DNA of 35,594 nucleotides, from positions 1-35,594 of IMG/VR virus record IMGVR_UViG_3300027631_000062. One strand, written 5' to 3'. Position numbers and translations under genes: made by a program. Shown here piece by piece: positions 1 through 28,095 of this stretch. Every line of letters begins with the position of its first letter. The stretch's first letter is position 1. The notes below the pieces were generated by a model. That model did no database searches. It saw only the letters and a program-made list of their open reading frames with translations, and had not been told where the DNA came from. The stretch comes from a virus.

Positions 1-19
1 GGGCTAATCATATACAAAT

Positions 20-30
20 GTTAGTATGTA
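20..30 (+). promoter_or_regulatory. Repeated phage promoter, copy 1 (GTTAGTATGTA)
   Basis: The core GTTAGTATGTA sits in a longer block shared with copy 2 (CTAATC, TAT, then AATGTTAGTATGTATTC). Read as an extended -10 it is TG-T-TAGTAT at 19-27, which puts the start of transcription near 34, exactly where the 5' arm of the RNA stem at 34-45 begins. The -35 region and any upstream inverted repeat lie outside the window. Promoter function is inferred from repetition and position. Confidence 0.6.
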
Positions 31-33
31 TTC

Positions 34-214
34 GTAAGGCAAGTGACTAGAGCATAGAGAGAACCTATGACGACGAGTGTGGTGACTTGTTCATTGAACA
101 CACTTGCCTTACACCCCCCCCAAGCATAAGTGCGCCTAGAGTGTTTATGCGAGTGAGAATGGCATAGTCGGACTTGCGGAGAATAAGGAGTGCTTCGGCA
201 CTCCTTATTTTTTT
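34..214 (+). ncRNA. Structured non-coding RNA candidate, unit 1
   Basis: Between promoter copy 1 and a strong terminator there is no usable ORF, but the sequence is highly foldable. A perfect 12-bp stem joins GTAAGGCAAGTG (34-45) to CACTTGCCTTAC (101-112). Inside it CATAG (54-58) can pair with CTATG (65-69). After the stem come eight consecutive C residues (114-121), a GCATAA/TTATGC hairpin, and the terminator hairpin. TAGTCGGA in its 3' part recurs in the leader of the unit 4 mRNA. An unpaired C-run could pair with G-rich ribosome-binding sites, but that is a guess. I do not recognise the RNA family. It lacks the hallmarks of tmRNA. Confidence 0.6.
182..214 (+). terminator. Intrinsic terminator of unit 1
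   Basis: Perfect 12-bp stem AATAAGGAGTGC (182-193), UUCG tetraloop, GCACTCCTTATT (198-209), running into a tract of T to 214. Confidence 0.92.
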
Positions 215-230
215 GCCTATATTTCGTTAT

Positions 231-272
231 CGTTGGTGTGAACGAGGGGTTTAGCTCTCTTACACACGAACG
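231..272 (+). repeat. Inverted repeat upstream of promoter copy 2
   Basis: CGTTGGTGTG (231-240) and CACACGAACG (263-272) pair except for one position. An alternative outer pairing is ATTTCGTT (221-228) with AACGAAAT (269-276). The interior carries GGGTTTAGCT (247-256), flanked by GAG and CTC. It ends 27 nt before the TAGTAT of promoter copy 2, nearly the same spacing as in units 3 and 4, so an activator site or other DNA-level element is plausible. Confidence 0.65.
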
Positions 273-297
273 AAATTGTGTCTAATCGTATGGCAAT

Positions 298-308
298 GTT
301 AGTATGTA
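298..308 (+). promoter_or_regulatory. Repeated phage promoter, copy 2 (GTTAGTATGTA)
   Basis: Identical core to copy 1, with an extended -10 of the form TGnTAGTAT. About 17 nt upstream lies TGTGTC, whose last three bases (GTC) match the -35 positions of copies 3 and 4. The predicted transcript starts near 312 and leads into the gene at 347. Confidence 0.62.
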
Positions 309-346
309 TTCATAAGCGAGAAGGTATCTCACTTAGAAAGGTAACA

Positions 347-568
347 ATGGACAACAAAGACTTTGAGATAGTGAAAGAACTTATCGTACTGTTCACGGTA
401 TTGCGTAGCGAAGACTGTGTGCTAGTGGATAATGTTTCTGGTGCTAAAAAGACCAAAGAACTTGTCAAGGAAGCAATGAAGCAGACTGGTAATCCACGAA
501 AGTACAAGTACATTTGGTCGGGTAATGACCAAGCGAAACTCATCGTCTTTCTCGCCCCTAGTAAATAA
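347..568 (+). CDS. Hypothetical protein, 73 aa (unit 2)
   Basis: I do not recognise this family. The start chosen is ATG 347, with AGAAAGG five bases upstream. A longer reading from 278 would begin ahead of the promoter core, so it is less likely. The protein begins MDNKDFEIVKELIVLF, has a hydrophobic amphipathic N-terminal half, then a basic segment (KKTKELVKEAMK, PRKYKY) and ends with a beta-like LIVFLAPSK. There is no signal peptide and no cysteine pair. It is the only protein of unit 2, between promoter copy 2 and its own terminator, so it is presumably transcribed alone. Confidence 0.75.
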   Translation: MDNKDFEIVKELIVLFTVLRSEDCVLVDNVSGAKKTKELVKEAMKQTGNPRKYKYIWSGNDQAKLIVFLAPSK

Positions 569-584
569 CCTTTCCCCCCGATAG

Positions 585-619
585 AAAAAGAGCCGTACAT
601 CCAGTATGGCTCTTTTTTT
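585..619 (+). terminator. Intrinsic terminator of unit 2
   Basis: AAAAAGAGCCGTAC (585-598) pairs with GTATGGCTCTTTTT across a short loop, ending in a T tract. It lies 17 nt after the stop codon of the 73-aa gene. Confidence 0.88.
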
Positions 620-717
620 ATGTCCAAAATCAGACCACCACTCAGACAGGCAGGCATACCTATGAATATTGAACATATACGATACACGACTGATCACACA
701 ACGAAATATCCGGTCAA

Positions 718-757
718 GCTGGAGTGCAGGAAGGGTTTAGCTTTTTTGTGCTCCAGC
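718..757 (+). repeat. Inverted repeat upstream of promoter copy 3
   Basis: GCTGGAG (718-724) and CTCCAGC (751-757) are perfect arms around an interior containing GGGTTTAGCT (733-742), here flanked by AAG and CTT instead of GAG and CTC. The repeat ends 28 nt before TAGTAT of promoter copy 3. Confidence 0.7.
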
Positions 758-783
758 GAATAAGGGTCTATTTATGGGTAAGT

Positions 784-794
784 GTTAGTATGTA
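784..794 (+). promoter_or_regulatory. Repeated phage promoter, copy 3 (GTTAGTATGTA)
   Basis: Same core as copies 1 and 2. About 17 nt upstream is AGGGTC (763-768), matching GGGGTC of copy 4. The following leader contains the hairpin CGAAGC-AACAAC-GCTTCG and then AAAGGAG before the gene. Confidence 0.65.
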
Positions 795-838
795 GTTATC
801 GAAGCAACAACGCTTCGGTAGTCCGAAAGGAGATTCCA

Positions 839-1141
839 ATGGGAGTCAAGAAAGTAAACCTAAGCGAACTCAAAGGCTCGCTCAACAAGCGTGGTCGGGG
901 TCGCTTCGAAGACCCTGCGCTTCGTGAAGCGTTGGCACAGATGCTCGTAGACGGTGAGCCAATCGTCTATGACGAGTTGTTCACCGTTACTGGCAAGACC
1001 ACCGAGAAGCAGATTGACAACGAACACGCAAAGTGGCGCAATCGTGCCGTGAGCGTGTTTGAGTCGCTCGAATCAGGGCGCAAGGTGTCTGTCTCGTGGA
1101 CAGACGCACACGAGATGATTATCTCGCTTGCGAATGCCTGA
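839..1141 (+). CDS. Unknown phage protein, 100 aa, paralogue A (unit 3)
   Basis: Start ATG 839 follows AAAGGAG with a short spacer. The product is 100 aa and about 83 of 100 positions match the unit 4 protein by eye. The conserved core includes KVNLSELKGSLNKRGR, LREALAQML, YDELFTVT, KQIDNEHAKWRNRAVSVF and WTDAHEMIISL. The protein is basic near its N-terminus and appears helical, with no membrane segment and no cysteine motif. Function is unknown; a small nucleic-acid-binding or host-modulating protein is only a guess. Its codons end in G or C much more often than those of paralogue B or the minus-strand genes, suggesting separate acquisition or a different selection history. Confidence 0.85.
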   Translation: MGVKKVNLSELKGSLNKRGRGRFEDPALREALAQMLVDGEPIVYDELFTVTGKTTEKQIDNEHAKWRNRAVSVFESLESGRKVSVSWTDAHEMIISLANA

Positions 1142-1147
1142 CCAAGT

Positions 1148-1178
1148 TTGCCGTGAGTTCTGAATCATCTCACGGCAA
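1148..1178 (+). other. 3' UTR hairpin after paralogue A
   Basis: TTGCCGTGAG (1148-1157) and CTCACGGCAA (1169-1178) form a perfect 10-bp stem between the stop codon and the terminator. Units 2 and 4 have no equally strong equivalent. It could protect the mRNA 3' end. Confidence 0.6.
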
Positions 1179-1181
1179 GAG

Positions 1182-1212
1182 AAAAAGTACCCCTTCGGGG
1201 GTGCTTTTTTTT
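1182..1212 (+). terminator. Intrinsic terminator of unit 3
   Basis: Stem AAAAAGTACCCC (1182-1193) / GGGGTGCTTTTT (1198-1209) with a UUCG tetraloop, then T residues. Confidence 0.9.
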
Positions 1213-1233
1213 GCCCAAAATCAGGTCGCTGCG

Positions 1234-1269
1234 CTGGCGTTCCAGTTGCTGAAGCAACTTTCACGCCAG
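1234..1269 (+). repeat. Two-tier hairpin after terminator 3
   Basis: Outer arms CTGGCGT (1234-1240) and ACGCCAG (1263-1269) enclose inner arms AGTTGCT (1244-1250) and AGCAACT (1253-1259). AAAATCAGGTC precedes it at 1217-1227. A second copy of the same length follows unit 4 with a different but still paired inner stem. Confidence 0.75.
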
Positions 1270-1328
1270 TCTATACGGACAGTCTATACCTATAATTTTA
1301 ATGTAAATTCTTCATACGACCCAATAAA

Positions 1329-1367
1329 GCTGGTGTGAAGGATACTTCAGTGTTCTTTAGCACCAGC
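1329..1367 (+). repeat. Inverted repeat upstream of promoter copy 4
   Basis: GCTGGTG (1329-1335) and CACCAGC (1361-1367) are perfect arms. The repeat ends 28 nt before TAGTAT of promoter copy 4, as in unit 3. The interior holds GAAGGATACTTC and ends in TTTAGC. Confidence 0.7.
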
Positions 1368-1393
1368 GTTTTGGGGTCTATTCATAAGGGAAT

Positions 1394-1404
1394 GTTAGTA
1401 TATA
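1394..1404 (+). promoter_or_regulatory. Repeated phage promoter, copy 4 (GTTAGTATATA)
   Basis: One base differs from the other three copies. GGGGTC (1373-1378) lies 17 nt upstream of TAGTAT, and GGGTCTATT is shared with copy 3. The leader that follows has a GGC-AATAAC-GCC hairpin and then GGAGG. Confidence 0.63.
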
Positions 1405-1447
1405 AGGGTAAGGCAATAACGCCCTACCAAATAGTCGGAGGTATCCT

Positions 1448-1750
1448 ATGGCTGTTCGTAAAGTAAACCTAAGTGAGTTGAAAGGCTCATTGAATAAGCG
1501 AGGCAGAGAGCGTTTCAACGACCCTGAATTGCGTGAAGCATTGGCACAAATGCTTATTGACGGTGAAGCCGTACTGTATGACGAATTGTTCACAGTAACG
1601 GCTAAGACAACAAGTAAGCAAATTGACAACGAACACGCTAAATGGCGTAATCGTGCTGTTTCAGTATTCAATTCACTTGAAAGTGGTCACAAAGTTTCTG
1701 TGACTTGGACAGACGCTCACGAAATGATTATTTCGTTGGTTCAGCAATAA
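1448..1750 (+). CDS. Unknown phage protein, 100 aa, paralogue B (unit 4)
   Basis: Start ATG 1448 follows GGAGG in a TAGTCGGAGG leader. It is exactly the same length as paralogue A and aligns without gaps. Differences cluster at the N-terminus, around residues 37-56 and at the last three residues, while KQIDNEHAKWRNRAVSVF and TDAHEMIISL are unchanged. Codons are AT-rich like the rest of the phage (TTG, GCA, ATT, AAT), so many synonymous sites differ from paralogue A. Conservation of protein but not DNA implies old duplication or independent gain, with selection on the protein. Function unknown. Confidence 0.85.
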   Translation: MAVRKVNLSELKGSLNKRGRERFNDPELREALAQMLIDGEAVLYDELFTVTAKTTSKQIDNEHAKWRNRAVSVFNSLESGHKVSVTWTDAHEMIISLVQQ

Positions 1751-1775
1751 TTTATTCCGTAAGGAAACAATTAGG

Positions 1776-1807
1776 AAAAGGGAAGGCGAAAGCCTTCCCT
1801 TTTTTTT
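1776..1807 (+). terminator. Intrinsic terminator of unit 4
   Basis: AAAAGGGAAGGC (1776-1787), GAAA tetraloop, GCCTTCCCTTTT (1792-1803), with the T tract continuing to 1807. Confidence 0.92.
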
Positions 1808-1828
1808 GTCTAAAATCAGGTCATTACG

Positions 1829-1864
1829 CTGGCGTTCGCAAATGCTAAAGCATTTACACGCCAG
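1829..1864 (+). repeat. Two-tier hairpin after terminator 4
   Basis: Outer arms CTGGCGT (1829-1835) and ACGCCAG (1858-1864) match the copy at 1234-1269. The inner arms are AAATGCT (1840-1846) and AGCATTT (1849-1855), so pairing is kept by changes on both sides. AAAATCAGGTC precedes it (1812-1822). Confidence 0.75.
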
Positions 1865-2021
1865 TAAATTTAACTTTATTCTATTGTATAAGTTTAGTAC
1901 CTGTTTCTAATCATAGGTAAGGACTATGGAAACCCTCTCTTTATGTAATTGATTTAAGTTTAAGGCTGGTGTGTCATAGAAATTCATTTGTTTAACACAC
2001 CATTAAATTTAACTTTATTCT
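1865..2021 (+). repeat. 18-nt direct repeat, two copies
   Basis: TAAATTTAACTTTATTCT occurs at 1865-1882 and again at 2004-2021. ATAAGTTTA follows each copy at a similar distance. Each copy sits immediately after a hairpin element (1829-1864 and 1965-2001). Confidence 0.8.
1965..2001 (+). repeat. Orphan copy of the promoter-upstream inverted repeat
   Basis: GCTGGTGTGT (1965-1974) with ACACACC (1995-2001) resembles the repeats at 231, 718 and 1329 in arm sequence and overall size (37 versus 39-42 nt). At the expected distance downstream there is no TAGTAT promoter, so this looks like a decayed or promoterless fifth module. Confidence 0.5.
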
Positions 2022-2604
2022 TAACAATAAGTTTAATGTTTCCAAATACTATTGGGTTATACTTCGAGATCTTATCTCAAAATGTAATTGATTTCTATTA
2101 AATATATCCTATTCTATTCTATGATGTAAAGAGTTCGAGAACTGAATCAAATTCTGAACAGAATCATGAAGTGTTTGCTCGAGAAATCCCTTAACTGTTC
2201 CTTTAAGCAATAGTCATGCCTAATGCCTTACTAATTACAGCCGTGTAATGACTTCCTAATACTCTTGCTAATACCCTGAGTTAATCCCGCCTTTAATTAC
2301 TTCATTTCCTGCTTCCTCAAAGCCTTGTGAATTTTCGGGGTTGATTACTTAATAAGAATAAACTTATCTATAGGATATTACTAACGATAGGCCTCTCTTT
2401 TATAGTCTCTTTATATGACCGATCTTCTAAATATAGACTTTCCGTCTACTAAATCTTAAAAATGGGGTTATAAATGCCTATATAGATAACCCCTAGATAG
2501 AGAGTAGATAGAAATGATCTGTTTTTACCCGGTTTTCCCTCGAAATACTCTGTTTTTTACTATTTTCCTTATGATTATTAATAAACTTAACTGGTTTTGG
2601 GCAC

Positions 2605-2647
2605 AAAAAAAAGGCTTAAAAATAAGATTTCTCTTACTCTTAAGCCT
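2605..2647 (-). terminator. Terminator of the long minus-strand transcript
   Basis: On the minus strand AGGCTTAA pairs with TTAAGCCT, with an inner TAAGA/TCTTA extension, followed by eight T. It lies about 200 nt beyond the last minus-strand gene and would end the small-gene operon. Confidence 0.85.
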
Positions 2648-2652
2648 AATTA

Positions 2653-15879: not shown

Positions 15880-16206
15880 TTAAATTCCAAACTCACTTTT
15901 AATAACATTTGCTTTAATTGTTTTAATTTCTTTGTTAACAACCATTTTGCATAGGTCAATATCTATTCCATTTTCGGGAAATATATTCTTCAATGTATTT
16001 CTTTCTTTTGGAGCAAATGAACCCCAAATGCCAAAAACTTCATTATTGCTTATTGCAAACATTAAGCATTCCGCAGCAACTTCACATTTTCTACAAACAG
16101 CTTTTGCATAGCTCTCTCTATTTGCATTAATCTTGTTGTCTGTGCTGTCACAATAAAACATTTGAGAATTTTCACTCTTACAAGCTGCTTTTTCTGTCCA
16201 ATCCAA
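15880..16206 (-). CDS. WhiB-like Fe-S transcription factor, 108 aa
   Basis: Start taken as TTG 16206, giving the typical opening MDWTEKAACKS; an in-frame TTG at 16227 is possible but would read through the ribosome-binding site AGGAAGGA. Four cysteines at about 9, 38, 41 and 47 (C-x28-C-x2-C-x5-C) fit the WhiB [4Fe-4S] ligand set, and GIWGSFAPKERNTL matches the family's G[IV]WGG turn and C-terminal helix. WhiB proteins are restricted to actinobacteria and their phages. They bind sigma factor region 4 to alter promoter choice, so this gene may help redirect host transcription, possibly towards the unusual phage promoters seen at the left edge. Confidence 0.88.
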   Translation of the reverse strand: MDWTEKAACKSENSQMFYCDSTDNKINANRESYAKAVCRKCEVAAECLMFAISNNEVFGIWGSFAPKERNTLKNIFPENGIDIDLCKMVVNKEIKTIKANVIKSEFGI

Positions 16207-16207
16207 A

Positions 16208-16552
16208 TTATTTGTTTCCTTCCTCAATCAATGGGTAAATGACTACATTATCAAAATACTCAAAATACTTATCTCTCTCTTCATTAACAGCTAACATTGC
16301 TACTACATGAGACAATAAGCACATAATAACATTTAATGCACCTTCTTCTTCTTTTGTTCCGGTAAGTCCAGTCATATTGAAAAGTTTCATCATTACTTCA
16401 TGACCACCTCGAATACCATCTTTATGATCAATGTTTTTCAGCATGTTAGTTACTATCATTAATGAACTTGTAAAATCAGCTAAATCATTTGGGTCTGGAT
16501 TAATGTTGGAATAGAATTCCGGGCTTTTATTAAAATCATCAAAACTAAACAT
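16208..16552 (-). CDS. Hypothetical helical protein, 114 aa
   Basis: ATG 16552 at a TAATG junction (MFSFDDFNKSPEFYSNINPD) is preferred over a GTG nine bases earlier. The body is helical with a hydrophobic stretch (LNVIMCLLSHVVAMLAV, about 78-95) that may be buried or membrane-associated. Overlaps nothing downstream; the WhiB-like gene begins next to its stop. Not recognised. Confidence 0.72.
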   Translation of the reverse strand: MFSFDDFNKSPEFYSNINPDPNDLADFTSSLMIVTNMLKNIDHKDGIRGGHEVMMKLFNMTGLTGTKEEEGALNVIMCLLSHVVAMLAVNEERDKYFEYFDNVVIYPLIEEGNK

Positions 16553-17497: not shown

Positions 17498-18046
17498 TTA
17501 TTTTTCTTTGTTTTCGATATAAGATTCGTAGTAGTAAGATTCATCAAAATACCTTGAAATCAACTCTGCTTGATACTCTTCTTGACATTTTCCATTTGCC
17601 CAAATATTTGAACCACAAAATCCCATTCCTGACTCTTCATAATAAAGGCAGAATACTAGATTTGGATAATCTTTGCAGATTTTATTAAACGCTTCTATTG
17701 GAGGCGACCAAGCTGATTCAAAATTAAAAGCAATTACGGATGTTTCTGTTCCGTCATTAATTTCAGTATAATCTTGACCTACATGTAAATCAGATTCATT
17801 CCATTTAGTTCCCCAATTATCAATTCTCCAGTCATACCAGCTTTTATATCCAAACTTTTCAAAGTTTGCAATTTGTTGCTCATCGGGAGTCATTGAAACA
17901 TTTCCAATGTTTAATTCTTCAGGGGTTGGATAAAGTTTTTCTAGTAATGAATACTCATCTTTACCGATAGTAATCACTTCCATTAACTTTTTCATATCTT
18001 CTCGCTTGCCATAAATTGACAAGTTATTGCTGCACCAGTTTGGCAT
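17498..18046 (-). CDS. Api92-like ferredoxin-fold protein (DUF1281 type), 182 aa
   Basis: Opens with MPNWCSNNLSIYG, the signature start of the Api92/YubB-like family, and contains YDWRIDNWGTKW (about 71-82) and FNFESAWSPPIEAF, both characteristic of it. Members occur in phages and plasmids and share a ferredoxin-like fold without Fe-S ligands. The function is not established. AAAGGATACAACTAAA precedes the ATG. Confidence 0.82.
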   Translation of the reverse strand: MPNWCSNNLSIYGKREDMKKLMEVITIGKDEYSLLEKLYPTPEELNIGNVSMTPDEQQIANFEKFGYKSWYDWRIDNWGTKWNESDLHVGQDYTEINDGTETSVIAFNFESAWSPPIEAFNKICKDYPNLVFCLYYEESGMGFCGSNIWANGKCQEEYQAELISRYFDESYYYESYIENKEK

Positions 18047-18047
18047 T

Positions 18048-18248
18048 TTAGTTGTATCCTTTTTCTTTGTTGTATTTTTCAGCAGCTAATTCAATAGCTG
18101 TATTTATATGCTCGTTTAATTCCTCTGCTTCAATCAAAACTGATGGGCTAAGTATTCCTTGTTTTATCAACTCATCAATAGCATCACCTACTCTTTCAGC
18201 GTATTCTTCATCCGGCAAATCTAAAAAATATATTTCTTCATTTTCCAT
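18048..18248 (-). CDS. Hypothetical acidic protein, 66 aa
   Basis: ATG 18248 (MENEEIYFLDLPDEEYAERV) at a TAATG junction; GGGAAAAAGAATA is upstream. All-helical and acidic. Not recognised. Confidence 0.68.
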   Translation of the reverse strand: MENEEIYFLDLPDEEYAERVGDAIDELIKQGILSPSVLIEAEELNEHINTAIELAAEKYNKEKGYN

Positions 18249-18433
18249 TATTCTTTTTCCCATTCTGGATTGTTAAGGATCACAAGCGCTTTGCTGTAAT
18301 CTTCTTCTGTTTCTTCTAATTCATCTGTTCGATTAAGCAATTGACAAATCATTGTATATTGCTCATCATCAATAAACTTAATTCCATTATTAATGTCTAC
18401 CCCAACTAAAAAGTAGATTATTTTCTTTTCCAT
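18248..18433 (-). CDS. Hypothetical protein, 61 aa
   Basis: ATG 18433 (MEKKIIYFLVGVDINNG) starts two bases after the upstream stop. A hydrophobic first strand then an acidic helix. Not recognised. Confidence 0.66.
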   Translation of the reverse strand: MEKKIIYFLVGVDINNGIKFIDDEQYTMICQLLNRTDELEETEEDYSKALVILNNPEWEKE

Positions 18434-18434
18434 A

Positions 18435-18746
18435 TTAAAACTCATCATCCTCATCTATATCCATAGGACCATCTCCCATTTCACATTTACCACAAAGAAT
18501 ATCTGGGCCCCACCAAGAACCTATAAAAGTTCCGTGTTCACAGTATTGACTTTTATCATTCCTGTCCCAATCATATTCATCACCTATTTCATAATCATCA
18601 CCCATAACTTCAATCCTTTCATTGACGCTTAGTGTCATTAATTCTACATACCTTTGAACTGAGACGCTTTTAAGATAAGCTTGATATTCAATATCTAATG
18701 CAGCATCTGCTTCCATTTCTGTTTGCTCTTGTGTTAACTTAGTCAT
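18435..18746 (-). CDS. Acidic protein with CEHG/CGKC site, 103 aa
   Basis: ATG 18746 (MTKLTQEQTEMEADAALD) is used; a TTG at 18764 lies in the AGGA region. The C-terminal third has CEHG (about 68-71) and CGKC (about 86-89), a likely zinc site, flanked by many acidic residues. Function unknown. Confidence 0.7.
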   Translation of the reverse strand: MTKLTQEQTEMEADAALDIEYQAYLKSVSVQRYVELMTLSVNERIEVMGDDYEIGDEYDWDRNDKSQYCEHGTFIGSWWGPDILCGKCEMGDGPMDIDEDDEF

Positions 18747-18999
18747 AATTGTATGATTCCTCAATTTTTCTTTCCCAATCCGTTGTTACACGGAACTTGA
18801 TTCTATTTTCGTTTATTCCTACTGGCTGTAATACTGTAATTATTCCTTCTTCAACATCTAATATTGACTCACACTCTTCACATTCCCATTGTTCCCATTT
18901 TGCACATTCTGCTTTAACTTCTTCAGAAGGGTATATAATGTTTTCGCTAGTGTCAATTAAATTAATATTTTCTGTTTTACAATTTGGACATTTGTTCAT
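18739..18999 (-). CDS. Zinc-ribbon protein, 86 aa
   Basis: MNKCPNCKTENINL with CPNC at 4-7 and CEEC at about 40-43 forms a zinc ribbon, followed by a beta-rich tail (GIITVLQPVG). GAGG precedes ATG 18999. Overlaps the next gene by eight nt. Role unknown. Confidence 0.74.
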   Translation of the reverse strand: MNKCPNCKTENINLIDTSENIIYPSEEVKAECAKWEQWECEECESILDVEEGIITVLQPVGINENRIKFRVTTDWERKIEESYNYD

Positions 19000-19000
19000 T

Positions 19001-19690
19001 TTAATCCTCAAATAACTTTAGTTGGTTAGGGTTTTCTTTTTCTGGAAATATTGGTCTATCAAAACCTTGTTCATCGCACCATTCATACCATTCACCCCAT
19101 CTTTCGGGGTTGCATAATCCTGATTTTAATATTGCTTCCAATATTTTATTATCATTTGGAAATTGATCATAATCCGGGTTGAATTCAAAGTTTAAGTCAA
19201 TGTCTAATGTATGCAGAATTTTTTCAGCCCATCCTTTTTCTTCTGTATTTGTCACAAGAAGTAAATAATCTGCCATATTTTCAATATAATCAACACACTC
19301 ATCGTGTAGATTATTTAGATAATCATTCTCATCAGCTATTGGATATTCATTTAATTCGTCATGCCATTTCAATACTGCTTTGAAAGATTCAGTAATATTG
19401 TTTTCATTGTAATTTCCTGGCTCTTTAAGAATTTGGCAAATTAAACGATCAATTGAACCACAAGCCCAATGAGAAAATGTTTCAATTTTAAAATCATTAG
19501 GGTATCTGTTTATTAAATCATCAGTGATTGTTTTAAAGTTTGATCTTTGCATAATGCTAGAATCTCTTTGTTTATCAATCCCAGTAAAACCCCAAGTTAT
19601 AAACATATCTTCTTCACCCCAATAACCAAAGTATTCAGGTCTTGTTAATGCTTGCAATGCAAGATTTACAATATCTTCTGTATCTATCAT
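19001..19690 (-). CDS. Hypothetical protein, 229 aa
   Basis: ATG 19690 (MIDTEDIVNLALQALTRPEY) sits next to the upstream stop, with GAGGA upstream. Acidic, Trp-rich, helical: it contains TFSHWACGSIDRLICQIL and, near the end, RWGEWYEWCDEQGFDR. Phage proteins beginning with this kind of helix and carrying ACGSIDRL have been seen as unknown conserved phage proteins. No catalytic site is apparent. Confidence 0.74.
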   Translation of the reverse strand: MIDTEDIVNLALQALTRPEYFGYWGEEDMFITWGFTGIDKQRDSSIMQRSNFKTITDDLINRYPNDFKIETFSHWACGSIDRLICQILKEPGNYNENNITESFKAVLKWHDELNEYPIADENDYLNNLHDECVDYIENMADYLLLVTNTEEKGWAEKILHTLDIDLNFEFNPDYDQFPNDNKILEAILKSGLCNPERWGEWYEWCDEQGFDRPIFPEKENPNQLKLFED

Positions 19691-19691
19691 T

Positions 19692-20249
19692 TTAATATTC
19701 ATCCTCTTCATAATGACCTAACTCTTTAAGAAATTCTTTTGCATCATCAAAACCGAATCCTCTATCAATATCAATAACTCCATTAGCAATATCTCTAAGA
19801 ACATGTGCCGCAGCTTTATTTGTTATATTTTTATAACAATCATCGTATTCATCAAGCTCAAAATCAAATATCTCAAAATATTCTGTCCAAACAGTATCAA
19901 TACCTACTAAAAACAAATTTCTTCCTTCATCTTCGGTTAAGTCTAACCATTCCAATGCTCTAACTTCAATTGTTTTTCCATCTTGAATAAGGGCAATGGG
20001 TTTAAAATTATCTTTCATTGCAGTTGCCCATCCAGCAATACAACAAGCAGTTCCACAATCTAAAGGTTCTAGTGTTTTAGTATTCTGTTGACTATTATGA
20101 ATAATAGGATAAGAATCAGTTGACCAATAAGGTTTACCATTCCACATACCTTGTTCTATTTTTGTAGAAAGCCAATATTGCATTTCAAATTTGTGCTCTG
20201 GAAGATTTTCAATATAATCTGCCAGCTTTAACATTCTTTTTCTGTTCAT
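19692..20249 (-). CDS. Hypothetical protein with CGTACCIAGWA motif, 185 aa
   Basis: Starts MNRKRMLKLADYIENLPEHK after AGGAG. Residues about 65-80 read CGTACCIAGWATAM, a motif that recurs in many phage and bacterial proteins of unknown function, followed by a helical segment (ALEWLDLTEDEGRNLF) and an acidic tail. The three cysteines might bind metal. Function not known. Confidence 0.76.
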   Translation of the reverse strand: MNRKRMLKLADYIENLPEHKFEMQYWLSTKIEQGMWNGKPYWSTDSYPIIHNSQQNTKTLEPLDCGTACCIAGWATAMKDNFKPIALIQDGKTIEVRALEWLDLTEDEGRNLFLVGIDTVWTEYFEIFDFELDEYDDCYKNITNKAAAHVLRDIANGVIDIDRGFGFDDAKEFLKELGHYEEDEY

Positions 20250-20356
20250 TTCATTCTCCTATTGTCTTTTGATTCACTAAACATCATTGCTAAACTAATA
20301 AATATAATTGGTATAAAAATTAGAAATACAATTGCAAAACTAAATATCTTAATCAT
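20246..20356 (-). CDS. Single-pass membrane mini-protein, 36 aa
   Basis: MIKIFSFAIVFLIFIPIIFI begins a hydrophobic helix of about 22 residues, then a short polar tail (SESKDNRRMK). It overlaps both neighbours by a few bases, which supports translation. It resembles the 37-aa membrane protein at 12511-12624 in layout, not sequence. Confidence 0.6.
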   Translation of the reverse strand: MIKIFSFAIVFLIFIPIIFISLAMMFSESKDNRRMK

Positions 20357-20672
20357 TTACTATCCCTAACTCTTTCATTGCTAGTTCATCCCAGCTTGCT
20401 GGTAATCTTTTTTCAATTTCATAAACATAACTATTGGCTTCTTCATTGTTTGTATTCCAATACATACAAACTTCACCATAAGCTCCAAAATCGTGGTTAA
20501 ACCATTTTTGCTTAAATGTAATACCTTTGCTTTCTGCATCAACAAATGTACGGCTTAGTTGATTAATATAAGCATCCATTTCTTTCAATGCATCTTTGCG
20601 ATAATTTTCATTACCAACTTGAGCACAATCTTCTTCAAAAGGTGATGGCCCAATTTCAATATATTCTTGCAT
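20349..20672 (-). CDS. Hypothetical protein, 107 aa
   Basis: Starts MQEYIEIGPSPFEEDCAQVG at a TAATG junction. The pattern GPSPFEEDCAQVG followed by a helix and ...FGAYGEVCMYW is that of small actinophage proteins of unknown function (about 100-110 aa). Ends in a helix (ASWDELAMKELGIV). Confidence 0.75.
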   Translation of the reverse strand: MQEYIEIGPSPFEEDCAQVGNENYRKDALKEMDAYINQLSRTFVDAESKGITFKQKWFNHDFGAYGEVCMYWNTNNEEANSYVYEIEKRLPASWDELAMKELGIVND

Positions 20673-20785
20673 TAGTTTATTCTTCCATTTCTATCTTTAA
20701 ATACTTTTTGTTCATAACAGACAATACAAATATTATCTTCTGGTTCTTCTTCATACATTTCTTCACAGTTGTAACATTTATACAT
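20672..20785 (-). CDS. Zinc-ribbon mini-protein, 37 aa
   Basis: MYKCYNCEEMYEEEPEDN carries CYNC (4-7) and CIVC (20-23), a minimal zinc ribbon. The ATG overlaps the upstream stop region and the stop overlaps the next ATG. Too short for confident family assignment. Confidence 0.66.
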   Translation of the reverse strand: MYKCYNCEEMYEEEPEDNICIVCYEQKVFKDRNGRIN

Positions 20786-21059
20786 ACATTATTTCAGTTT
20801 CCCATAAAAGCCAATCTGGATTAAATTCTAAATCTAGATCGCAAGTATAGTCTTCAACTAATTCTCTTTCTGGCATAAAGTCATCTACATCAAAGTTATT
20901 CCAACTATCAGTAATAGACTCAAATGAAGCCTCATCAACTTGAGATGCTTTTTTGATTTTTAAAAACAAATTCACTTCATCTCGTTTAGTGCAGCTTTCG
21001 CTTTCACATAAACAAAAAACTTCGTTTATATTGTTTTCTTTATTCTTACTGTTCTCCAT
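20778..21059 (-). CDS. Hypothetical protein, 93 aa
   Basis: ATG 21059 (MENSKNKENNINEVFCLCES) has the strong site AAGGAGAAGAGT; 21131 would overlap far into the previous gene. Contains CLCESESC near the start and an acidic C-terminal half. Function unknown. Confidence 0.7.
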   Translation of the reverse strand: MENSKNKENNINEVFCLCESESCTKRDEVNLFLKIKKASQVDEASFESITDSWNNFDVDDFMPERELVEDYTCDLDLEFNPDWLLWETEIMYV

Positions 21060-21339
21060 ACTCTTCTCCTTGTGTTTCGCTATCTCCATTGTCTTCTTCT
21101 TCATCTTCATCAAAGTCTTCAAACATTTCAATCCAGCATTTTGGGTGTATACCTGAAATCATAAGTTCTCTGTCTTCTTTTGGCATATTAGGAAAGACAT
21201 CTTGAACATGTTCTTGTTTAATAAACAATCTTTGATATTCTTCATAATTAATACCAAATTGACTTTCTTCTCCACAATGATGACATGTTCTTTTAAAACC
21301 ATAAATCTCATTAGTAATCATATAAACATTACCTCTCAT
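21046..21339 (-). CDS. Hypothetical protein with CxxC site, 97 aa
   Basis: CHHC at about 19-22 and a later HPKC could form a zinc site. The last 30 residues are almost entirely acidic (FEDFDEDEEEDNGDSE). Coupled by ATGA to the upstream gene. Not recognised. Confidence 0.72.
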   Translation of the reverse strand: MRGNVYMITNEIYGFKRTCHHCGEESQFGINYEEYQRLFIKQEHVQDVFPNMPKEDRELMISGIHPKCWIEMFEDFDEDEEEDNGDSETQGEEYGEQ

Positions 21340-21629
21340 TTTACTTCTACCTTTCTTTCTACTATAACTCTAGCTTCATATCTAACTCTTTTTGAAGGAT
21401 TATCGTAAGCTAATGAGCCAGGTTCTGCCTTAGACATAACTGGTAGCTCATCTCTATAAATATAGACAGTTGCACCATTAACTTCAATATCTAATCGATA
21501 CCCTTCGTAACCAATAAAATCAGCCATAGCTTCTTCTACTGTATCAAAAAATGTAACTACACCATTTTGATTTCTTGTTGCGTATGGAGTATCTTTCATA
21601 AGATATTCCTCTGGGATTCCGTCAATCAT
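21336..21629 (-). CDS. Hypothetical protein, 97 aa
   Basis: ATG 21629 (MIDGIPEEYLMKDTPYATRN) with GGAG seven bases upstream; 21635 is also possible. Beta-rich, ending in the basic RVRYEARVIVERKVEVK. Not recognised. Confidence 0.7.
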   Translation of the reverse strand: MIDGIPEEYLMKDTPYATRNQNGVVTFFDTVEEAMADFIGYEGYRLDIEVNGATVYIYRDELPVMSKAEPGSLAYDNPSKRVRYEARVIVERKVEVK

Positions 21630-21879
21630 TTTCATTCTCCATTGTGTAATCGTTTGTTATATCTTCATTGATCATAAAGACTCTTTCTTTCATTTTTTGT
21701 TCAATACATTCATCACAAATCCAAATAAGCATTTGAGAAAGATCAAATTTAGAACCATAACCACCTTCAACCAAAACTTCAATTGCGTCATTTATCTCCA
21801 TTAAAGAACTCTTTCCAAATGTTAAATAAGTAATTTGTTTTCCACAAGAAAAACAAGGGCACACTGTAATCATTTCCAT
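21622..21879 (-). CDS. Zinc-binding hypothetical protein, 85 aa
   Basis: CPCFSC (7-12) and CDEC (about 55-58) suggest a zinc site bracketing a helical insertion. TAATG-type junction on its upstream side. Function unknown. Confidence 0.72.
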   Translation of the reverse strand: MEMITVCPCFSCGKQITYLTFGKSSLMEINDAIEVLVEGGYGSKFDLSQMLIWICDECIEQKMKERVFMINEDITNDYTMENEND

Positions 21880-22250
21880 TATTTGACCTCCAAATACTCA
21901 GGGAATTTTTTAAAAAACAAAAATGTTCTAATTTGATACAACATCATTTGATGTACATAGTTAGAAGCAATGCCTATTTTTATTGCATTGCCTACTCTCT
22001 TGTTTTGACTAAGGTTTTTAATTGCAGAGTCTTTAACTCTTTGTGCATAAAAACATTCTCTATCTTTTTTGATATGAAAAGAATTAATTGTTTTAACAAT
22101 TTCTTTTCCAATTGTTTTGTTTCCAGATTTTGAATCAACTCCATAATCAGCAGAAAGGAAAACTTTAATTTCGTCTTCCTTCAATTGATATGAAACAAAA
22201 TCGGGGTGTATTGATAATTGATAATGTGTAAATTTTTCATATTCCATCAT
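21879..22250 (-). CDS. Hypothetical basic protein, 123 aa
   Basis: Starts MMEYEKFTHYQLSIHPDFVS after AAAGGATTTAAGTCA. Strands then a Lys-rich middle (GNKTIGKEIVKTINSFHIKK) and helical C-terminus. No motif recognised. Confidence 0.72.
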   Translation of the reverse strand: MMEYEKFTHYQLSIHPDFVSYQLKEDEIKVFLSADYGVDSKSGNKTIGKEIVKTINSFHIKKDRECFYAQRVKDSAIKNLSQNKRVGNAIKIGIASNYVHQMMLYQIRTFLFFKKFPEYLEVK

Positions 22251-22432
22251 TGACTTAAATCCTTTCCAGATTCAATTTGTTTTGTTTTTTGTTCACCACA
22301 ACCTTCGGGACAATCAGTAAGTTGTCCTTTTGCTAATCTAAAAGAATGCATTGCAGTACCAGTTTTAATTTTGTGTTCACAAGATAGAATTTGAATTGCT
22401 TCAAATCTACCGGGAGCTTTTGTTTGTTTCAT
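22247..22432 (-). CDS. Hypothetical protein with CPEGC, 61 aa
   Basis: MKQTKAPGRFEAIQILSCEH followed by CPEGC at about 41-45. With Cys18 and His20 this could bind zinc. AAGGATAAGAAA precedes the start. Function unknown. Confidence 0.68.
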   Translation of the reverse strand: MKQTKAPGRFEAIQILSCEHKIKTGTAMHSFRLAKGQLTDCPEGCGEQKTKQIESGKDLSQ

Positions 22433-22436
22433 TTTC

Positions 22437-22661
22437 TTATCCTTCTAATAAGTCACTTCTTACATTTAAAGAAGTTAGTTCTGATTTCTTTATCCAAAAA
22501 TAATTGCATTTATGAAGTAATGCCGGAGTATAAATCTTTCGGAATTCTCTTTCTCTTTTATCTAAGCCAATCCGATTACACTTTTCATCTAAGCAATAAT
22601 CGTAACCAGCCTCAAATCTTTCATCTATAAATTCTAAAGAACAATAAATACATTTAGCCAT
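22437..22661 (-). CDS. Zinc-binding protein, 74 aa
   Basis: Begins MAKCIYCSLEFIDERFEAGY with CIYC at 4-7 and CLDEKC at 23-28, a four-cysteine site. Small proteins with this start and site (CxxC...YDYCLDxxC) are frequent in actinophages; the function is not known to me. Confidence 0.75.
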   Translation of the reverse strand: MAKCIYCSLEFIDERFEAGYDYCLDEKCNRIGLDKREREFRKIYTPALLHKCNYFWIKKSELTSLNVRSDLLEG

Positions 22662-23216: not shown

Positions 23217-23642
23217 TTATTTTATGAATACAAATTCGTATTGATTAGTTTCACTATTAAAATCAACCATAACACTTCCGTCACCGTTGACATTTGTAAA
23301 AACATTACAATCATTGTCATCAGCAATCAATGTCATAAGATGAAGCTGATACTTCATTAATTCTGCAATGTTATCTTTACTCAAATGAGAAGCTGTACGG
23401 CAATACTTAATGTCGAGCATAACCCCTTTATTAAGAGAACGACTAATCTCAATTCTTGTCAAACCCATTTCTAAATCAGTTCCAGCATCATTACCCCAAT
23501 AATTACGGTCAAGCAAATCTGAATCGTATAGGCTAGGGGTTTTCTTAGCAGTACGATTTTTACGAAAATTCAACTTTGACATTTCTGCAGCTGAAATCTT
23601 ACGCACTTTTGGTTTTGCTTCTGTTTCTATTTCTTCACTCAT
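23217..23642 (-). CDS. Hypothetical protein, 141 aa
   Basis: Lys/Arg-rich N-terminus (KPKVRKISAAEMSKLNFRKN) and a beta-helix-beta body (ISRSLNKGVMLDIKYCRTAS, then NIAELMKYQLHLMTLIADD). The strong terminator behind it and GGACAGG ahead suggest high expression. No family recognised; the basic N-terminus suggests nucleic-acid contact. Confidence 0.75.
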   Translation of the reverse strand: MSEEIETEAKPKVRKISAAEMSKLNFRKNRTAKKTPSLYDSDLLDRNYWGNDAGTDLEMGLTRIEISRSLNKGVMLDIKYCRTASHLSKDNIAELMKYQLHLMTLIADDNDCNVFTNVNGDGSVMVDFNSETNQYEFVFIK

Positions 23643-26185: not shown

Positions 26186-26371
26186 TTAAAATTCTTTATT
26201 TACTTCGCCATGTTCGTGATCAAGTTCATGAACAATTGATTCAAGTTTTTGTATCATTATTTTCATAACCGTATTCTCCATAATAAGGTTGGAGATTGTT
26301 CCGGTCAATTCCTTGACGATTTCATCGTAAGAAGGATTTACATCTTCTCTTGTTATAGGCTTTCGAGCCAT
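26186..26371 (-). CDS. Hypothetical helical protein, 61 aa
   Basis: MARKPITREDVNPSYDEIVK then a coiled-coil-like stretch (ELTGTISNLIMENTVMKIMI). It overlaps the 3' end of the large terminase gene by 19 nt. Not recognised. Confidence 0.68.
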   Translation of the reverse strand: MARKPITREDVNPSYDEIVKELTGTISNLIMENTVMKIMIQKLESIVHELDHEHGEVNKEF

Positions 26372-28095
26372 TTTTCACCACTTTCTGTAGATAAGGTTTG
26401 CTTGTCATAGCCAGGAACAAACTGGCCAATATCATTATTATACACCCTAACCGTACCAAATTCTTCCATATCGTCAAGCTCTTCATATTGCTTGAAGTCA
26501 GAGCCAAGAATTTCAATATCGACTTCCATTTCCATTGACATATTCTCAACACATGTAAAAACTGAACCGGCTAATGCGTCAGCCAAATCTTTTGATCCAG
26601 AGTTCGGGTGATCAATTTTGTTATTGGCAAACAATCTTAATTTTAACAACTCTTCCTCAACCAATAACTCATTCCAATAACCACGCAATCTTGTATCATA
26701 TATTGTTGTCATTAAAGTATCGTAATCAGTTTTTTTAACGCTATGGAAATCAGCATTGATACCTTGCGCTTTAAGACTTTGGATCATCTCAATGGATTGC
26801 CAACGGTCAAAAGTTACTTTTGCTACATCAAATTTCCTACATAATTCAATAATCATTTGCCTAACTGAAGCAAAATTAATTTCAGCTCCGGGAGCTGCTT
26901 CCCAAGAATGAATTAAATCAACATTAATAACTGGAAGGTTTTCCACTCCCATAGATGTTTTAATTTCTTTAAAGCCAGCACAATGACTCATGCATAAAGC
27001 TGACCTGTCTCTTTTAAGTCCTAAGTCAATATGAATAAACCTTCTGTGCCCATCTGTATTATTAAACCAAGGCTTATAAATACCATCTTCATCAACAGGG
27101 CTTTCTGCATGCATAAAAGATTTCCTTACCAGATCAGGATCTCTAAAGTATGCGTCTTCCATTGCCGGAGGTTCACATTCAAATCTTGCCCTAGCCTCAA
27201 TTGGATTTCTAATATATTCTGATTCTAATTGATGTCTTTCAATCGTAGGATTACATTCCCATGTAGCAGCTTTAATTCTCCAAGTTTTTGGTTCTTCTCT
27301 TTCAGCAGAACCAAAATATCTCTGTTGAATAAAGTCTCCTTTATATCTAGGGAAAGACAAAAGAATAACCTTACCGACTTCCGGGAAACGAGACATAACA
27401 GATAGCTTACTCATGTTATAAATTGCAGAGGCAGAACCTTTTGATCTTAATTCTCCTCTTGTTTCCGCGTCTGTTTTAAAAGCTGAAATCTCATCCAAAA
27501 TTACAGTCATAACTTCATAACCTTCCCAACCTTCACTTTCAGAGTGACCTGAGAAGCATCGTACTGGTCTGCTAAAGAAAAAGATTTCAGATACTCTTGG
27601 TTCAAATCCTACGGAGTTAAAGTAAGGTGAACTTAGTAATAAGTTCTTTAAAGGTTCAAAGAAAACTCTTTGAGCCTGTTGAGCGTTTACGGCCAAGTTA
27701 AGAAGGTCAATATACACACCTTTTGCTTTTCCGTAATAACCTAATGGGTCTTTTAGACAATGAAGAATGTAAACGGTATAAGCCATTGATATTCTTGCAC
27801 AATGGTCTTTTCCAGAACCTTTGCCTAACATGCAGATCACTTCGTTGTCGGTATATTTTTTATAATATTCTGACCCTTTTTCCTCCCCCATCATCTTTTG
27901 TAGGGTATGCTCTTTCAAGATTTGCGTACTGTGCCTTACAATTTCTAATTGAATGGGGCTTAGGTTTGGTAAACCCAAAAATCTTTTATCAGTTACAAAC
28001 TCTTCAATAGACACCGGGACTTCTTCAAGTTCATCTTGATTTAATAACTTATCGAAATCTTCATATCGAAGATTCATTCCAAGATAATCACTCAT
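26353..28095 (-). CDS. terL: Terminase large subunit, 580 aa
   Basis: The packaging motor ATPase and nuclease. Walker A is LGKGSGKD (90-97), Walker B VMTVILDE (195-202) with catalytic Glu202. The RNase-H-like nuclease domain begins with FIHIDLGL (Asp357 the first metal ligand), and the C-terminal SKDLADALAGS fits the third acidic position. Length is typical for a phage terL. It lies directly downstream of terS with a repeat-rich gap, and GGAGATAAATAA precedes the start. Confidence 0.93.
   Translation of the reverse strand: MSDYLGMNLRYEDFDKLLNQDELEEVPVSIEEFVTDKRFLGLPNLSPIQLEIVRHSTQILKEHTLQKMMGEEKGSEYYKKYTDNEVICMLGKGSGKDHCARISMAYTVYILHCLKDPLGYYGKAKGVYIDLLNLAVNAQQAQRVFFEPLKNLLLSSPYFNSVGFEPRVSEIFFFSRPVRCFSGHSESEGWEGYEVMTVILDEISAFKTDAETRGELRSKGSASAIYNMSKLSVMSRFPEVGKVILLSFPRYKGDFIQQRYFGSAEREEPKTWRIKAATWECNPTIERHQLESEYIRNPIEARARFECEPPAMEDAYFRDPDLVRKSFMHAESPVDEDGIYKPWFNNTDGHRRFIHIDLGLKRDRSALCMSHCAGFKEIKTSMGVENLPVINVDLIHSWEAAPGAEINFASVRQMIIELCRKFDVAKVTFDRWQSIEMIQSLKAQGINADFHSVKKTDYDTLMTTIYDTRLRGYWNELLVEEELLKLRLFANNKIDHPNSGSKDLADALAGSVFTCVENMSMEMEVDIEILGSDFKQYEELDDMEEFGTVRVYNNDIGQFVPGYDKQTLSTESGEKWLESL

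Follow-up and report, generated by a model that had tools for sequence, protein, structure and literature searches.

A candidate early host-takeover array of small promoter-terminator cassettes in uncultivated relatives of actinobacteriophages

The Bacillus phage SPO1 carries a host-takeover module in which small genes, 37-60, lie in a terminal redundancy of about 12 kb and encode mostly small products of early infection (PMC6873191). Long terminal repeats are also found in the Streptomyces cluster BE phages Jay2Jay, for which a published table gives a repeat length of 10,778, and Coruscant, whose repeat ends were mapped by 2-fold read coverage (PMC7650747) and whose repeat was reported to have a higher guanine-plus-cytosine (GC) content, explained as block transfer from a GC-rich source (PMC8612146). 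Here we describe an array of small, separately promoted units on the plus strand at positions 1-1870 of a 35,594-nucleotide (nt) stretch of viral DNA (IMG/VR record IMGVR_UViG_3300027631_000062, positions 1 to 35,594; hereafter the window), together with arrays found in related metagenomic phages. Our reading, to which we give a probability of about 0.6, is that the array is an early host-takeover set that enters first with the terminal repeat and is read by the host polymerase, each cassette being insulated, and that 1-1870 is the right end of an array about 5-6 kb long.

The SPO1 module, in which small genes are packed in a terminal region together with promoters and ribosome sites that belong to highly expressed genes (PMC6873191), resembles these arrays, where 88 small units have promoters and ribosome sites of their own. 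The SPO1 genes are arranged in operons, whereas the units here mostly hold a single gene between promoter and terminator and have regulatory segments that are uniform, hairpins in their leaders and a shift in GC content; the host and phage family are also different. The promoter-like site before each gene and the terminator after most speak, though not decisively, against an operon-type early region. Halovirus HF2 has intergenic repeats that carry promoters, nine of which repeats were reportedly tested with reporters (PMC8707807), but it is an archaeal virus. No description of a cassette architecture like the present one was found in the open-access literature searched.

Within the window, exact copies of TGTTAGTATRTA stand at 19, 297, 783 and 1393, all on the plus strand within 1.4 kb, and there is none elsewhere in the 35.6 kb record; among 300 first-order Markov sequences of the window's size, 299 had no copy and one had a single copy. 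The four terminators have stems of 9-12 bp followed by T-runs (183-208, 587-615, 1185-1206 and 1776-1803), and the motif copies and terminators listed by the first-pass annotation of this DNA were thus confirmed in place and on the plus strand. That annotation had also noticed a GTC 17 nt ahead in copies 2-4; the triplet does stand 17 nt 5' of TAGTAT in these copies, and the same spacing is kept in copy 1, right at the edge of the contig, but the triplet there is GGC. The open reading frames (ORFs) of units 2, 3 and 4 specify 73, 100 and 100 amino acids (aa), the last two proteins being paralogues that are 83% identical. Unit 1 has no convincing ORF, its sole frame being one of 20 codons (67-129), and it folds far more strongly than its shuffles (z -4.9), such that its product looks like a structured RNA. 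The units had been described as pointing away from the other genes of the window, which is wrong: the plus-strand units run toward the minus-strand genes, and the arrangement is convergent.

Nine related metagenomic phages carry a plus-strand array at the same place, with 7-11 units each at a spacing of 333-744 nt; their 84 units and the four of the window make up the 88 considered here. The proposed array of independent mini-operons is thereby supported, and so is its suspected extension to the left of position 1, although no sequence was recovered for the part that the window lacks. Homologues of the unit 3/4 protein lie at the junction of the plus and minus arms in every relative where they were found, and the plus-strand island of several kb at this junction has a GC content of 0.43-0.57 against 0.3-0.4 outside; the corresponding values in the window are 0.43-0.45 for the region 1-2000 and about 0.33 across most of the stretch. 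A typical unit comprises a phage-specific promoter block, a TAnnnT hexamer, usually a leader hairpin, an ORF of 31-134 aa (median 98.5 aa across the 88 units) and mostly a terminator. Nearly all starts, which were chosen by rule with five corrected by hand, are preceded by a Shine-Dalgarno-like motif. The arrays were met again, at 98.6-100% identity, in independent metagenomes and are therefore not assembly errors. Only two terminators were found by scan in the array of the relative termed G008, because most of its units close with a GC hairpin that lacks a clear T-run.

The expectation that related phages would share the window's motif was not borne out, as each phage group has a motif of its own. 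The consensus block is TTGAATACACATTCTC or a close variant in G010, G014, G018, L147, L150 and L153, TTGAGTACACTTACTT in G022, TTGAGTGCGTTTCTGTG in G008 and AGGTTTAGTACGGTTTCT in L145; that of the window is GTCTAnTCAT...TGTTAGTATGTA. A search of viral contigs with the 17-mer of the window motif returned six stretches in five other contigs, each lone and outside arrays, which we ascribe to chance, and an IMG/VR search with the long promoter pattern gave no match. The first-pass annotation had also asked whether the motif is frequent at random positions, and it is not: in the ten phages hardly any block lies outside the array or on the opposite strand; in G022, for instance, the array holds 11 within 5.8 kb, while the 88 kb outside it and the opposite strand hold none. 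All 88 units have TAnnnT at the distance expected, against a random rate of 5%, a count in which the four units of the window are not independent since their hexamer was chosen as part of the motif, and in which the motif itself served to anchor several promoters. Over 108 nt across the promoter, identity was 68-80% within a phage and 46-64% between phages, and within an array the regulatory segments, about 150-270 nt long, that surround unrelated genes were 76-84% identical. Equating TTAGTATGTATTC of the window with the TTGAGTACACATTC block of the relatives was rejected: no -10-like hexamer lies 20 nt 3' of it in units 1, 3 and 4, and the leader hairpins of units 2-4 begin right after TAGTAT. 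The G008 array (17600-22500) has in addition a 16 nt palindrome, GTTAGGnnnnCCTAAC, just 5' of most promoters, which resembles an operator.

Fold z scores below -1, relative to mononucleotide shuffles, were obtained for 77% of the leaders; the stem typically begins a few nt into the RNA and ends at the Shine-Dalgarno site. In a set of nine leaders, all of one class and taken from G010, G018 and L153, 72 of 72 pair cells could form, four of the eight pairs were changed on both sides, and the covariation score was reached by 0 of 500 shuffles. Imperfect inverted repeats occupy nearly all spacers between a terminator and the next promoter, and spacer folding is only slightly above that of coding controls (mean z -1.35 versus -0.93).

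Twelve gene families with more than one member were recognized in the arrays, and 29 of the 88 genes are singletons. The family of the unit 3/4 protein, here family A, accounts for 28 of the 88 genes and closes every array in 2-4 copies; gene order is partly kept (the series F H C D E B A), with gains and losses of whole units. Third-position GC content (GC3) is 0.44-0.79 in array genes and 0.24-0.30 in other long ORFs. Profile searches with family A against Pfam, PHROGs, PADLOC and PDB gave no reliable match, weak matches to HTH_15 (expectation values 0.005-0.1) fell below the cut-off and were dropped, and an AlphaFold model (predicted local distance difference test score, pLDDT, 74) had no significant fold match. 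No homologue was found when genome contigs were searched with a family A protein, or when IMG/VR was searched with P0003 (family A) and P0001 as single queries, while IMG/VR searches with family alignments did find homologues. The proteins of G022 unit 3 (19454-19759) and G014 unit 4 have a very basic C-terminal half (RRAHRKRTRRNRIRKALRRAVRFGKK in G022) and are likely, from this composition, to bind nucleic acid.

The equivalent row of genes in cultivated relatives is a direct terminal repeat of 11-12 kb, again with phage-private motifs. The ends of the Jay2Jay record repeat exactly over 11,438 bp, with a GC content of 0.47-0.59 against 0.45-0.50 elsewhere. This repeat holds rows of small genes, CCCTTCGGG hairpins, repeated terminators, 12 copies of a GTC..CCGGAC palindrome, and TAGA[CG]T, including TAGACT promoters, 17 times on the gene strand against three on the other. 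It converges with an arm bearing WhiB and one transfer RNA (tRNA) and has ThyX on its other side, a layout that is the mirror image of the freshwater one, in which the ThyX homologue of G008 lies at the matching place. The Coruscant repeat carries CGCCCGGCGCC 13 times and CTGTAAGCT seven times; the Jay2Jay and Coruscant motifs differ, and private array-wide motifs therefore exist in cultivated phages too. A repeat of 2,937 bp is present in the Rhodococcus phage Peregrin. The two cluster BE repeats share with the freshwater arrays the convergence with a WhiB and tRNA arm, the small genes, the higher GC content, the adjacent ThyX, and a terminator, palindrome and promoter between many genes; they differ in having about 20-25 genes, Lsr2 and ParB-like genes, several genes per unit and other motifs. 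A further difference is that family A, present in the freshwater arrays, was not detected in the phage collection by tblastn with P0003; the window DNA likewise had no match there. By analogy with the cultivated relatives, the freshwater array probably lies in a direct terminal repeat of a large actinobacteriophage.

In the mechanism that we envisage, each cassette would be a complete unit, with a sigma-70-type promoter bearing a phage-specific upstream block, usually a leader hairpin, one short ORF or structured RNA, and a terminator, and an inverted repeat would precede the promoter of the next cassette. On DNA entry, all cassettes would be read simultaneously by the host RNA polymerase, each strongly and independently, and the first products made would be small host-takeover or anti-defence products. 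Given that the regulatory segment is near-identical in every cassette, cassettes could be exchanged without harm to neighbors; they would be gained, lost or swapped while one private promoter per phage persists throughout the array, with recombination as the presumed force that keeps the segments uniform. Since all array promoters keep TAnnnT and WhiB is kept alongside quite different promoters, recognition of the host sigma-70 type suffices as a working assumption.

Several observations weigh against the host-polymerase reading. The arrays differ among phages with probably similar hosts, which a pure host-polymerase model does not require. No terminal repeat could be demonstrated in the freshwater records, in which a single internal or contig-end copy of the array is seen; all are classed as linear and may be fragments. 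None of the array proteins tested matched a curated family, and no known function is represented among them. For a plain sigma-70 promoter, a TTGA-to-TA distance of about 20 nt is long, and at 14-17 nt the conserved block exceeds a -35 hexamer; an extra regulator is therefore possible.

Such a regulator is central to the main rival explanation, which we consider rather improbable: the array would form the regulon of a DNA-binding factor encoded by the phage, be it WhiB-like or not, that acts on the long block after the first genes are on, and the motif would be private to each phage because factor and block co-evolve. The length of the block and its confinement to the array fit this explanation, as do second copies of the block, without a -10 element, about 100 nt upstream in G010, G014, G018 and L150, the different array-wide palindromes of Jay2Jay and Coruscant, and the retention of WhiB in the relatives. 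However, all 88 promoters keep the sigma-70-type hexamer, a sigma-70 region 4 domain is absent from the 13 records searched, and WhiB is encoded in the other arm, is retained in relatives whose array promoters differ strongly, and is linked to the block by nothing that we found.

We consider it unlikely that the array is a gene-capture platform, in which the inverted repeat would serve as a recombination site and cassettes would be acquired one at a time, with an integron-like effect. The repeats in nearly all spacers, the gain and loss of whole units with partly kept order, and the singleton genes would all be explained, but the repeat arms vary strongly, the spacer fold signal barely exceeds that of coding controls, and no recombinase tied to the repeats was identified, no search for one having been made. 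Integron arrays, moreover, consist of promoterless cassettes read from one external promoter, whereas each cassette here has a promoter-like site of its own. Early promoters of one phage are usually alike, and one could therefore envisage an ordinary early region with repeated promoters and no special organization, particularly as SPO1 provides an example of early genes that lie in a long terminal repeat under many promoters (PMC6873191). We give this very little credence, given the single gene in most promoter-terminator units across the whole array in ten phages, the uniform segments of 150-270 nt, the covarying leader hairpins and a GC3 that exceeds that of the other genes by 0.2-0.5.

If the host-polymerase reading is true, the arrays would provide an easily recognized address for the first-expressed takeover or anti-defence genes of abundant, mostly uncultured freshwater actinophages, and the 88 units are listed as candidates for such genes. 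They would also be a natural example of an entire promoter set that changes in concert from one phage to another. A broader proposal, which we make tentatively and with some doubt, is that across a wide group of actinobacteriophages the terminal repeats are standardized cassette arrays, whose private promoter-operator-leader part would be kept uniform within a phage through recombination and replaced wholesale from one phage to the next, with a cognate DNA-binding protein or hairpin-binding factor for each array; gene content and regulatory code would therefore change independently. The GC3 jump occurs in ten arrays with different genes and absolute GC contents and hence speaks against an origin by one block transfer, as put forward for the Coruscant repeat (PMC8612146). 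It suggests a kept property, perhaps one related to translation by host tRNAs at a time when those of the phage have yet to be made.

The four units of the window, all on the plus strand, are built as follows. The promoter of unit 1 (1-27) is cut by the contig start and has the extended -10 sequence TGTTAGTAT at 19-27, with GGC as its upstream triplet; the strongly structured RNA that follows (28-214) contains a 12 bp stem, GTAAGGCAAGTG/CACTTGCCTTAC, and ends in the terminator and its T-run. An imperfect inverted repeat at 231-272, read by eye and without a score in the automatic scan, separates terminator 1 from the promoter of unit 2 (276-305; TTGTGT at 276-281, TAGTAT at 300-305). The leader hairpin of unit 2 (309-346; z -3.2) lies directly 5' of the Shine-Dalgarno site and is followed by the ORF (347-568), for which a search found no relatives, and by the terminator with its T-run (587-619). 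An inverted repeat detected by the scan, GCTGGAGTGC...GTGCTCCAGC (718-757), precedes the promoter of unit 3 (761-791; TAGTAT at 786-791), its leader hairpin (795-838; z -3.7), its family A ORF (839-1141) and its terminator (1185-1214). Two inverted repeats come next, one centered on GCTGAAGC (1233-1269), read from the sequence, and one, GCTGGTGTGAAGG...TTTAGCACCAGC (1329-1367), seen both by reading and by scan, before the promoter of unit 4 (1371-1401; TTGGGG at 1371-1376, TAGTAT at 1396-1401), its leader hairpin (1405-1447; z -2.4), its family A ORF (1448-1750) and the terminator that ends the array (1776-1808). To the right of the last unit, 1853-2100 holds gene-less remnants of spacer repeats, for example 1853-1896 and 1992-2035, which are 82% alike.

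Conserved elements were also noted at the array edges. On the left, a strongly conserved CTAACCTTAGGACCGTTATAGGTGCAGATGCC...GGGGCATGTGCATGTGTAGCGGTCTTTTTT element (G010:57779; G018, reverse complement, 28070; L150:4757; L153:5621; L147:6095; G022:18325) looks like a small structured RNA or a special terminator and had no match in Rfam. On the right, the conserved sequence ACAAAAAAAAGGCTTAAAAATAAGATTTCTCTTAC (window 2591-2650, G008 about 23520-23590, and the L148 end) is, by its sequence, probably the terminator of the minus-strand arm, which in the window lies on the minus strand at 2612-2647, at the convergent boundary, with a similar element in G008 (about 23540). Contig breaks fall near the array edges in two species, at the start of L152 (the end of G036), 433 nt left of the first promoter, and at the end of L148 (the end of G033), about 900 nt right of the last unit, as expected if the repeat edges are close by.

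The window is, judging by its sequence, part of the genome of a phage that is a distant relative of the Streptomyces cluster BE phages. Its large terminase (26353-28095, minus strand), the marker used for finding related phages, is 38-40% identical (over 91-99%) to those of cluster BE phages and 78-100% identical to those of many environmental IMG/VR viral contigs. Matches to the end regions of Jay2Jay were limited to ThyX, WhiB and one 143-aa segment, and we therefore regard the phage as a probable relative rather than a member of Stanwilliamsviridae and cluster BE. The hosts are assumed to be freshwater Actinobacteria, on the basis of WhiB and of the literature (PMC6802176). The WhiB-like gene (15880-16227, minus strand) lies in the convergent arm outside the array and is given as context, no action on the array being implied. 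A search of the window and six related loci against Rfam returned tRNAs only, with no known RNA in the array. Other genes of the window encode a RuvC-like resolvase, a Cas4-type exonuclease, a DNA methyltransferase and a glycosyltransferase, and the window has two tRNAs.

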